NCBI RefSeq assembly: GCF_018709685.1
Contig: NZ_JABDHQ010000010.1
Coordinates: forward strand, 1-64,000
Direction of reading: 5' to 3'
DNA: 64,000 bases
DNA from: Akkermansia muciniphila
GTDB taxonomy: Bacteria > Verrucomicrobiota > Verrucomicrobiia > Verrucomicrobiales > Akkermansiaceae
In this document: positions 9,563 through 26,951 of the stretch, piece after piece
Numbering within the stretch: the stretch's first letter is position 1
Layout of the letters: the number at the start of each line of letters is the position of its first letter
Notes under the pieces: model-generated
The model's input: only the letters and a program-made list of their open reading frames with translations
Database searches by the model: none
Told to the model about the DNA's origin: nothing
Position numbers and translations under genes: made by a program

Positions 9563-10671
9563 GAACCGGAAGGCGCCGTGCCCGTAGCGGGCGCACTGTA
9601 GGATTCATGGGACAACACCCTGGGCATGGGCATGCGCGTATTCTCGTGAATCCATTCCGCAATGCCAGCCTGGAGCTCGTCATCCCCCGCGTAGACATTG
9701 ACCTTGTAGGTTTTCTCAAATTTCTCCCCCTTCTTTCCTTCAATGGAGTGAAGGAAGGTCCGTTCCCGGGTGCCGTAGGGCTCCCCTTCACGGATGGATT
9801 CATACAACTGTTTTTTCTCGTTTTTCAGGGAATCGTAAATGCTCAGGCAGTCCTCCAGGGTGGAGAAGAAGTACTGGTTCGTACAGACCACCATGACCGG
9901 ATAGTCCAGCTTCAGGGCGTCATCCACCGGAGCCACGTCAAACGTGCTGAAATTGGCCCGCCAGTCCACGCCGGCGTCCAGAAGCCAGTAGGCGGCGTAG
10001 CAGAGGGGTTTGCCCCAGTCCTGCTCCATCTCTCGCACAGCCACGGTTTTAAGGGACGGGAAGCAGTCCATGCTGACCATGCAGCGGATGCGCGGATCTT
10101 CAGACGCGGCTTTCAGCAGCACGGCGGCGCCAAAGCCCTGCCCCACGGCGGCCACGGGCGGCAGCCCCCCCTCTTTCCGGGAGACAGCGTCCAGCAGAGC
10201 CGTCACGTCCGCATATTCCTTCAATCCGTAAGTGCAGAATTTCCGGGCGTTATCCTTCCCGCGCGGATTCCATACCAGGCACGTGTACCCGGCCCCGGTC
10301 AGGCCTTCCGCCAGCGGCAGGGAACCTTTCACCCCCTGGTCCCAGGAAGTGGCTATCACGACCAGCTCCGGCTTTGCCTCCAGATGCGGCATGTTGCCGC
10401 GCAGTTTCAAGGCATCCCGCACGCGGCTCTGGCGCGGGGACAGGGCCTCCGGACGGCCCGGACGCACCAGATAGCCTTCAATGGCCGTGCCGTCCGCGGA
10501 GACGGCCTCCACAGGCTCCATCGCCAGGGAATCCGCCACAGGGGAATCGGCAGCCTCATCCCCGCCCACGGGAACGAGCAGCGGGGTGGACACATACCAG
10601 GCAAACCACACCAGGACGCCCACCGCCGCAAGAATGAGCAGAAAAAACAGTTGAACAAGACGTTTGAACAT
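9559..10671 (-). CDS. Alpha/beta-hydrolase-fold protein with degenerate nucleophile elbow
   Basis: The 370-residue protein has an N-terminal hydrophobic anchor (about 5-28) and an alpha/beta hydrolase fold. The oxyanion strand is recognisable (VVIATSWDQGVKGS), as are WNPRGKDNARKF and a nucleophile-elbow region. The elbow reads GQGFG (residues 177-181), so the catalytic Ser of GxSxG is Gly179. Unless another residue substitutes, it should not act as a serine hydrolase. It is the first gene of the operon with the OmpA-like and HAD genes, and its stop overlaps the OmpA-like start. A binding or structural role in the envelope is one possibility. Confidence 0.75.
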   Translation of the reverse strand: MFKRLVQLFFLLILAAVGVLVWFAWYVSTPLLVPVGGDEAADSPVADSLAMEPVEAVSADGTAIEGYLVRPGRPEALSPRQSRVRDALKLRGNMPHLEAKPELVVIATSWDQGVKGSLPLAEGLTGAGYTCLVWNPRGKDNARKFCTYGLKEYADVTALLDAVSRKEGGLPPVAAVGQGFGAAVLLKAASEDPRIRCMVSMDCFPSLKTVAVREMEQDWGKPLCYAAYWLLDAGVDWRANFSTFDVAPVDDALKLDYPVMVVCTNQYFFSTLEDCLSIYDSLKNEKKQLYESIREGEPYGTRERTFLHSIEGKKGEKFEKTYKVNVYAGDDELQAGIAEWIHENTRMPMPRVLSHESYSAPATGTAPSGS

Positions 10672-25751: not shown

Positions 25752-25787
25752 AGCGCATCACGGTTCCGCCGTGGTGCGCTTTTTTTC
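25752..25787 (+). terminator. Terminator of the pgeF-like gene
   Basis: A 12-bp stem (AGCGCATCACGG with CCGTGGTGCGCT) followed by seven T residues. Confidence 0.9.
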
Positions 25788-25941
25788 CGTATGCCCCATA
25801 CCCGTTGGCGCTGGAGGGCACGGCCGCGCAATCCCGCAGGGGACAAGGCCGCAGCCCGCCGCGGCAGGACCGTTCCGGTTACGCCGGACCCGACAATCCG
25901 AGTTGCCGTTCCCGCATTCAAACATCATTACATTTGCAATC

Positions 25942-26862
25942 ATGGCAGTAACAATCAGCGACAACTATCAGGTAAAATACACCAGGAAATGGGGCACCCT
26001 GCTCCAGCAGCACGCCTCCCGGCTGGACAAGTACGTCAGCGTCATGCGCGACTTGAGCGGCAAGGTGGTCTTTCTGGACCAATTCGGCGTTCTGGACTTC
26101 ACGGAAAAAACAACCCGCGTGGGCCAGACCGTTCTGAACGAGGCGCCCACCACGCGCCGCTCCATGCGTCCGCGCACCTTCACCAAGGCCATCGGCTACG
26201 ATGAATTTGACGCAACCCGCCTGGGCGACATGGACCTTCCCGTCAGCAAGACGATCGAAGGCCTCCAGGCCGCCGCCGGGCGCCGCATGGACGACGTGAT
26301 GATTTCCGGCTTCCTGGACACGAATTACGTGGGCGAGGACGGCATGACCGCCGTTCCGTTCAAGGAAAGCCAGCAGATCCCCGTGGACCACGTGGACAGC
26401 GGCACCAAGGGAGCCAGCAACCTCACCGTGGCCAAGCTGCGCGCGGCTCTCCAGCTTTTTGAGGAAAATGAAGCCTGGAACCAGGACGCCCCGCAGTTCG
26501 GCGACCAGCTCGTCATTGCGGTCACCAGTTCCCAGATCATGAGCCTGCTGCGGGAAACGGAGGTCAGCAGTTATGACTTCAATAACGTGAAAGCCCTGGT
26601 GGAAGGGAAGATAGATACCTTCATGGGCTTCAAGTTCATCCGCACCCAGCGGCTGCCCAAGGCGGACAACGGCACCCGTTCCTGCCTGGCCTGGGTGAAG
26701 AGCAAGGCGCAGTTCGGTATCTGGAACGACTTCAAGGTGAAGCTTTCCGTGCGTGACGACATGGAGGAAGCCCTCCAGATCCGCGCCAAATTCGCCTGCG
26801 GAGCCACCCGCCTCCAGGAAGAAGGCTTTGTCAAAATCCTGTGTGACGAAGGGGTTAGTTAA
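25942..26862 (+). CDS. Orphan phage major capsid-like protein (HK97-fold, Phage_capsid_2 type)
   Basis: The 306-residue product resembles major capsid proteins of podovirus-like phages and prophages. The strongest stretch is the segment FNNVKALVEGKIDTFMGFKF, followed by an aromatic IRTQRLP and a C-terminal ATRLQEEGFVKILCDE. The second half also keeps the SCLAWVKSKAQFGIW pattern of such proteins. No portal, terminase, scaffold, protease, tail or integrase gene lies on either side. It stands alone between two terminators (25787 and 26914), flanked by pgeF and a ThuA lipoprotein gene, both of chromosomal type. Codon use looks like that of its neighbours. It may be a phage relic or a domesticated shell protein; nothing adjacent looks like encapsulin cargo. 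Confidence 0.75.
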   Translation: MAVTISDNYQVKYTRKWGTLLQQHASRLDKYVSVMRDLSGKVVFLDQFGVLDFTEKTTRVGQTVLNEAPTTRRSMRPRTFTKAIGYDEFDATRLGDMDLPVSKTIEGLQAAAGRRMDDVMISGFLDTNYVGEDGMTAVPFKESQQIPVDHVDSGTKGASNLTVAKLRAALQLFEENEAWNQDAPQFGDQLVIAVTSSQIMSLLRETEVSSYDFNNVKALVEGKIDTFMGFKFIRTQRLPKADNGTRSCLAWVKSKAQFGIWNDFKVKLSVRDDMEEALQIRAKFACGATRLQEEGFVKILCDEGVS

Positions 26863-26913: not shown

Positions 26914-26951
26914 GCCCCGGACCCGCCCTGCGGTCCGGGGCTTTCGTTTTT
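26914..26951 (+). terminator. Terminator of the capsid-like gene
   Basis: A 10-bp stem (GCCCCGGACC with GGTCCGGGGC) followed by TTTCGTTTTT, about 50 bases after the stop. A weaker CCTCCC/GGGAGG hairpin lies just upstream. Confidence 0.88.

Follow-up and report, generated by a model that had tools for sequence, protein, structure and literature searches.

The stretch of DNA analysed here, referred to as the window, comprises 64,000 nucleotides from Akkermansia muciniphila and carries a single gene for a phage-type major capsid protein in a chromosomal setting. The gene and the elements on either side of it are as follows.

25752..25780, + strand, terminator-like hairpin of 13 pairs with a T tail at the end of the upstream laccase-family gene (hairpin scan)
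25781..25941, + strand, intergenic leader/promoter region ahead of the capsid gene, with partial conservation across species
25942..26862, + strand, locus A, major capsid protein gene of the gene transfer agent (GTA) type, 306 aa, PF19821, HK97 fold, single-gene unit
26914..26941, + strand, terminator-like hairpin of 10 pairs with a T-rich tail at the end of the capsid gene (hairpin scan)

The ATG at 25942 was taken as the start codon, because the open frame upstream of it varies among near-identical orthologues, spanning 321 to 425 codons; on the same ground, a GTG at 25771 was rejected as a longer in-frame start. The gene had been described as standing between two terminators, and the two hairpins agree with this description, the upstream one being retained among orthologues, with the reservation that the hairpin scan as a whole gave only a slight excess over shuffled sequences (4 versus 2.7, sd 1.9).

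The original prediction likened the product to the major capsid proteins of podoviruses and prophages, and the profile searches bore this out. The protein matched the Pfam family PF19821 (Phage_capsid_2) along the whole profile (positions 1-293 of 293, E 7.5e-100, 334 bits with a cut-off of 25) and also matched PHROG 3437, a major head protein family (E 4.3e-57). We then compared a predicted structure with HK97-fold capsids and encapsulins, as had been proposed for this gene. The AlphaFold2 model, calculated from an alignment of 46 sequences (pLDDT 78.8, pTM 0.75), supports an HK97 fold, and the top solved structure in Foldseek and VIA-align comparisons was the capsid of phage LME-1 (VIA Z 20.5, rmsd 3.1 Å, 246 residues), with the T7, HK97 and RcGTA capsids and the encapsulins (Z about 15-16) all ranking below it. 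The nearest phages in the GenBank set were HTVC010P-type Pelagibacter podoviruses and unnamed Caudoviricetes, at 30-38% identity.

No second head, portal or terminase family was recognised among the 58 window proteins in a PHROG scan at E 1e-10, which agrees with the earlier claim that no portal or terminase gene lies nearby, and the window capsid is the single copy of PF19821 in the source genome. Its codon use had been said to match that of the neighbours, and the synonymous codon choice indeed fell within the spread of the window (score -0.861 against a mean of -0.900, sd 0.079). The same scan matched one window protein to phrog_382, a minor tail protein with lysin activity (E 7e-30), presumably through a common cell-wall hydrolase domain in a housekeeping enzyme, and one to the DprA-like family phrog_23875, likewise presumed to be a housekeeping enzyme. 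DprA is required by recipients of GTA DNA in other systems.

Conservation of the gene at this place was assessed in 59 species genomes of the genus Akkermansia (denoted by G numbers, the source genome being G000), most of which are metagenome assemblies, and a few absences may be assembly gaps. A capsid match was present in 48 of the 59 genomes and was of the GTA type in 43 of these, the GTA and prophage classes being assigned by hand from the search tables according to the bit-score gap. Nine A. muciniphila-group genomes carried the capsid gene at the same place, in the order laccase family, capsid, ThuA and aroD, with ThuA not found in two of them. Within this group the capsid proteins were 96-100% identical, and the flanking proteins went down to 78-80%. 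The dN/dS value of the capsid gene was about 0.03, the lowest among the five genes compared at the locus (most comparisons of neighbours gave roughly 0.05-0.2), and its dS was similar to that of the neighbours or somewhat below. We read these values as vertical descent of the gene at this locus under strong constraint. A gene confined to one strain and surrounded by prophage genes would have spoken against the original prediction; instead, it was found in many genomes and in a shared chromosomal context.

About 30 more species carry capsid copies that are 61-79% identical and lie elsewhere on the chromosome, one of which (in G045) still adjoins aroD. When the surroundings of the copies were compared by self-trained gene calls on 38 stretches, the copies of 61-100% identity had no phage-family neighbours, nor any neighbour kept among distant species. 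The copies of at most 40% identity were mostly followed by a 126-162 aa protein, tail-tube A and tail-tube B, and with these tail genes of their own they are prophages. Two additional copies, 74% identical in G049 (a prophage remnant) and 70% in G053 (a prophage), form one group with the scattered copies in the capsid tree (87/94 support), in which the prophage copies are basal. In the G049 remnant (L034:8330-10402, on G049:C1), the capsid is accompanied by a tail-tube A that is 42% identical to the GTA protein, and this remnant may be a record of gene exchange between phages and the GTA. Outside Akkermansia, family-level matches of the capsid and the large terminase were few and weaker, and those of the capsid that we examined mostly had phage-type neighbours.

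For the missing phage parts, a search with the podovirus portal family PF12236 found one strongly conserved copy per genome, distant from the capsid gene and present in nearly the same genomes. The portal and the other parts found in the source genome occupy four further loci.

Locus B, L230 = G000:C34:144600-164500, conserved unit with two divergent arms
Locus B, arm 1, 71 aa protein, phrog_831
Locus B, arm 1, L230:9834-11468, - strand, portal, PF12236
Locus B, arm 1, Bbp19-like protein
Locus B, arm 1, 293 aa scaffold-like protein, phrog_3742
Locus B, divergent arm, L230:12008-12628, + strand, tail-tube A (TTPA), phrog_394
Locus B, divergent arm, wHTH protein
Locus B, divergent arm, 85 aa TerS-like protein
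Locus C, G000:C12, L288:9217-10848, - strand, large terminase (TerL)
Locus C, ahead of TerL in its unit, 423 aa protein and 1728 aa protein
Locus D, G000:C44, L308:8755-11223, + strand, tail-tube B (TTPB), alone, phrog_376
Locus E, G000:C8, L338, about 9733-10269, + strand, internal virion protein (IVP), alone, phrog_418

Several of these assignments drew on the G053 prophage. The homologue of the phrog_3742 protein lies directly upstream of the capsid gene there, i.e. in the scaffold position. The 423 aa and 1728 aa families of locus C each matched a protein of this prophage in hhalign (96%, E 4.5e-9 and 99.4%, E 1.3e-21, respectively, with all controls at 1.6% probability or less), and these two counterparts come right after the phrog_418 internal virion protein, a spot that we take to be that of the T7 ejection proteins gp15 and gp16. 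We regard the two locus C proteins as ejection-type. Within the A. muciniphila group, IVP was assigned from weak matches (E 2e-5 to 3e-4), and the orthologues share one conserved place. Among the GTA genes found, none was recognised as coding for lysis, a tail fibre or a regulator. A candidate regulatory motif shared by the GTA loci was equalled by 6 of 20 controls at k=10 and by 0 of 20 at k=14.

Between them, the five loci code for almost all parts of a podovirus virion and its packaging machinery. A functional prophage is a contiguous phage genome at one site, whereas these parts lie at five unlinked sites, and in the complete genome G057 (3055 kb) TerL is located at about 533 kb, the capsid at about 1950 kb, IVP at about 2071 kb, the portal at about 2405 kb and TTPB at about 2754 kb. 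The chromosomal genes that flank the loci in the A. muciniphila group include the laccase-family gene, ThuA, aroD, UbiA and truA.

Three further observations concern the surroundings of these loci and related genes. Three genes near locus B (L230:15537-17478, on G000:C34), which by eye resemble Cas2, Cas1 and Cas4, occur in G000, G057 and G049 and not in G053. Two near-identical rubrerythrin-like genes adjoin locus B (L230:6398-7369) in the A. muciniphila group only, with a weak EncFtn-like match below the cut-off. Finally, G015 contains a second set of TTPA, TTPB and internal virion protein (L348:7688-11518, on G015:C1), 23-27% identical to the GTA proteins, which is probably a prophage or a remnant of one.

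In TerL, a Walker A-type motif (KARQLGIST) and the conserved acidic residues of the nuclease half are preserved and line up with the prophage enzyme, and from this alignment the ATPase-type and nuclease-type motifs of TerL are judged to be intact. Since TerL and the portal together imply DNA packaging, they weigh against an empty shell, and a tail-only bacteriocin was rejected on the same basis. The TerS-like protein (73-91 aa) matches the prophage TerS only past its N-terminal Terminase_2-like region and appears to have lost the DNA-binding part, this homology being weak (one hhalign comparison gave E 8.7e-5 over 21 columns, and a profile search E 0.1-0.2). TerS proteins without a DNA-binding domain have been described for GTAs, including RcGTA (PMC11841831).

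We next considered whether the scattered loci are inherited as one set. Across the 59 genomes, capsid, portal, TerL and TTPB were all present in 39 and all absent from 13, and the 7 genomes with three of the four genes are mostly fragmented or incomplete assemblies. Pairwise co-occurrence of these four genes gave Fisher p values of 5e-11 to 1e-8, figures that kinship inflates, and a species tree was therefore built from ribosomal proteins. On this tree the set is present across the genus and its absence can be accounted for by about three changes, one in a clade of 11 species, one in G028 and one in G013, and each of these approximately three losses removed all of the unlinked loci tested. Such joint loss of unlinked loci, about three times, is hard to explain unless the loci work together. 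The IVP locus, checked in 20 genomes, occurred in 11 of 13 GTA-positive genomes and in 0 of 7 GTA-negative ones. G028, which is without other GTA genes, holds a C-terminal TerL fragment (residues 357-527; L349:9870-10382, on G028:C33) that is 43% identical to the GTA TerL compared with 31% to a prophage TerL; it looks like a decay relic and points to loss rather than original absence.

Identity matrices of eight GTA proteins correlated with those of ribosomal proteins (Mantel r 0.83-0.91; the permutation p of 0.003 is the floor at 300 permutations). The dN/dS values were 0.03-0.055 for the portal, 0.07 for TerL and 0.09-0.19 for TTPB, and no internal stops were found; by these measures the GTA components tested are under purifying selection. 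Evolution is slow in the head proteins and fast in TTPB and the ejection-type proteins, as would be expected for virion parts that meet the recipient cell. When nine GTA genes were scored for codon adaptation, the capsid gene came first (CAI 0.59 versus 0.27-0.50), a comparison of one gene that proves little.

GTAs have been characterised by six features, namely caudoviricete-derived proteins, an endogenised genome that often occupies multiple loci, mostly vertical inheritance, packaging of mostly random host DNA, an own genome too big for the head, and delivery of DNA to cells (PMC9662315). In Akkermansia, proteins of caudoviricete derivation were recognised by their similarity to PF19821, PF12236, phrog_394, phrog_376, phrog_2 and phrog_418, and the genes are fully endogenised at five loci or more. 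Mostly vertical inheritance and co-diversification with the host are borne out by the Mantel correlations, the approximately three losses and the fixed place in the A. muciniphila group. We infer from loci hundreds of kilobases apart that the own genome exceeds the packaging capacity; presumably no particle could hold the whole set, and the genes would thus be passed on vertically rather than spread as a phage. We consider it very likely that the capsid gene belongs to a domesticated short-tailed phage whose genes occupy at least five unlinked loci and which is most likely a GTA. The original prediction had listed a part of a GTA dispersed in the genome among its options, and this one received strong support: the portal, scaffold-like protein, terminase, both tail-tube proteins and three ejection-type proteins lie elsewhere, and the loci tested were gained or lost together with the capsid.

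If the set works as such an agent, an inducing condition would lead a few cells to express it. The scaffold would shape a procapsid built from the window capsid protein, and TerL together with TerS, apparently without its DNA-binding part, would fill this procapsid through the portal with headfuls of the host chromosome. The tail tube and the ejection proteins would then be added to the filled head, and lysis would free particles that inject chromosomal DNA into relatives.

Among known systems, the GTA of Faecalibacterium prausnitzii (FpGTA) is similar in that it belongs to a gut anaerobe, is most likely podovirus-like (PMC12946183, 2026) and comprises capsid, portal, scaffold, TerL and a TerS without an obvious DNA-binding domain, the TerS-like assignment being weak in Akkermansia. 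The FpGTA genes form two separate operons about 125 kb apart (PMC12946183), whereas Akkermansia, a member of another phylum, has at least five loci, with capsid, TTPB and IVP each alone. FpGTA is also documented by particle, proteomic and packaged-DNA evidence, unlike the Akkermansia set, which is known from its genes and was likened to FpGTA by descriptions. The Akkermansia set would be a second such case, in another phylum and more scattered. With RcGTA and the Rhodogtaviriformidae it shares vertical inheritance and an endogenised state, the known genes of the latter being spread over five loci (PMC9662315), and in alphaproteobacterial GTAs, too, the capsid is among the genes with the strongest codon adaptation (PMC9765227). 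RcGTA, however, has one main head-tail cluster, whereas the Akkermansia capsid lies apart from portal and scaffold in a gene set of podovirus type, with TTPA, TTPB and ejection proteins. The HTVC010P-type phages, at the capsid identity given above, and the Akkermansia prophages, with two capsid copies 70-74% identical, have portal, TerL, TTPA, TTPB and ejection-protein families in common with the set, but carry these genes in one phage genome, unlike the GTA genes, which are interspersed with truA, aroD and other housekeeping genes.

In a study of faecal viromes from three human donors, the GTA producers named were Faecalibacterium and others, and Akkermansia is absent from the text (PMC12946183). 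Among contigs with transduction patterns in virus-like particles from mouse gut, Verrucomicrobia were over-represented 3.5 times, with no assignment to Akkermansia specified (PMC7667829); for an Akkermansia GTA this is a lead only. The open-licence papers searched contained no description of a GTA in Akkermansia or Verrucomicrobiota.

A domesticated phage-like particle with another role, either a DNA-filled killer that does not transfer, like PBSX of Bacillus, or an anti-phage particle, would be expected to show an equal gene set and vertical inheritance, and prophages with the related capsids do occur in the genus; PBSX itself also packages host DNA at random, although the role described for it is killing and not transfer (PMC7667829). 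Nevertheless, we consider such a role unlikely, as DNA delivery is the simplest reason why the portal, the tail tube and all three ejection-type proteins have been kept, those tested being under purifying selection, and nothing bacteriocin-like was recognised adjoining the loci. A more doubtful alternative is the domesticated encapsulin-like shell of the original prediction, in which the capsid alone would enclose a cargo enzyme that is encoded alongside or carries a tag. The window capsid does have the HK97 fold and encapsulins among its structural matches, and it is a single shell gene with its own terminators. However, it is nearer to phage capsids, as the lead of LME-1 shows, no neighbour kept beside it among distant species offers a cargo candidate, and the rubrerythrin-like pair by locus B, confined to the A. 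muciniphila group, was not counted as cargo. The capsid travels instead with the portal and with a terminase of intact motifs at other loci, and a scaffold-like gene is retained, which makes a nanocompartment very improbable.

Elements such as capsid-forming islands and hijacking satellites are known, and a resident phage or satellite could likewise borrow a capsid, portal and terminase encoded by the host, given that Akkermansia genomes carry prophages. This arrangement of split helper genes is hardly to be expected, because G053, G057, G049 and G017 have prophage-type capsid, portal and terminase matches besides the scattered set, and in G000, which has the set, PF19821, PF12236 and prophage-type TerL gave no further match. 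Least probable of all, to the point of being practically ruled out, is a decaying prophage that was rearranged apart and has no function. The loci do look like one podovirus in pieces, and GTAs and relics are hard to separate by annotation (PMC11841831), but dN/dS values of 0.03-0.2 and intact frames over a long divergence led us to reject a non-functional relic, most species retain the set, and unlinked loci were lost jointly. The notion of an old phage relic kept for a function stood in a weak sense, given the strong purifying selection on the capsid, and failed for a lone relic.

Returning to the gene transfer agent, we think it probable that Akkermansia possesses a Verrucomicrobiota GTA of independent short-tailed-phage origin, which was already present in the ancestor of the genus, is encoded at five or more loci and forms particles that move host DNA among gut strains. 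As part of this reading, its scattering would be finer than in the GTAs compared, with capsid, portal-scaffold, terminase, tail tube and ejection proteins apart from one another. To our knowledge, few GTAs are known outside Alphaproteobacteria. GTAs elude genome searches because they resemble prophage relics split over several loci. As this case shows, one orphan capsid gene can betray a complete system scattered over the chromosome, and tracing which genes a genus gains and loses together offers a workable route to finding such systems. The naturally positive and negative species within one genus make it testable why selection keeps GTAs. Should particles be produced, then Akkermansia, a mucus-dwelling bacterium of the human gut that has been much studied, would own an inherited device for the exchange of chromosomal DNA, which would bear on its strain diversity and on the host DNA found in gut virus-like particle fractions.
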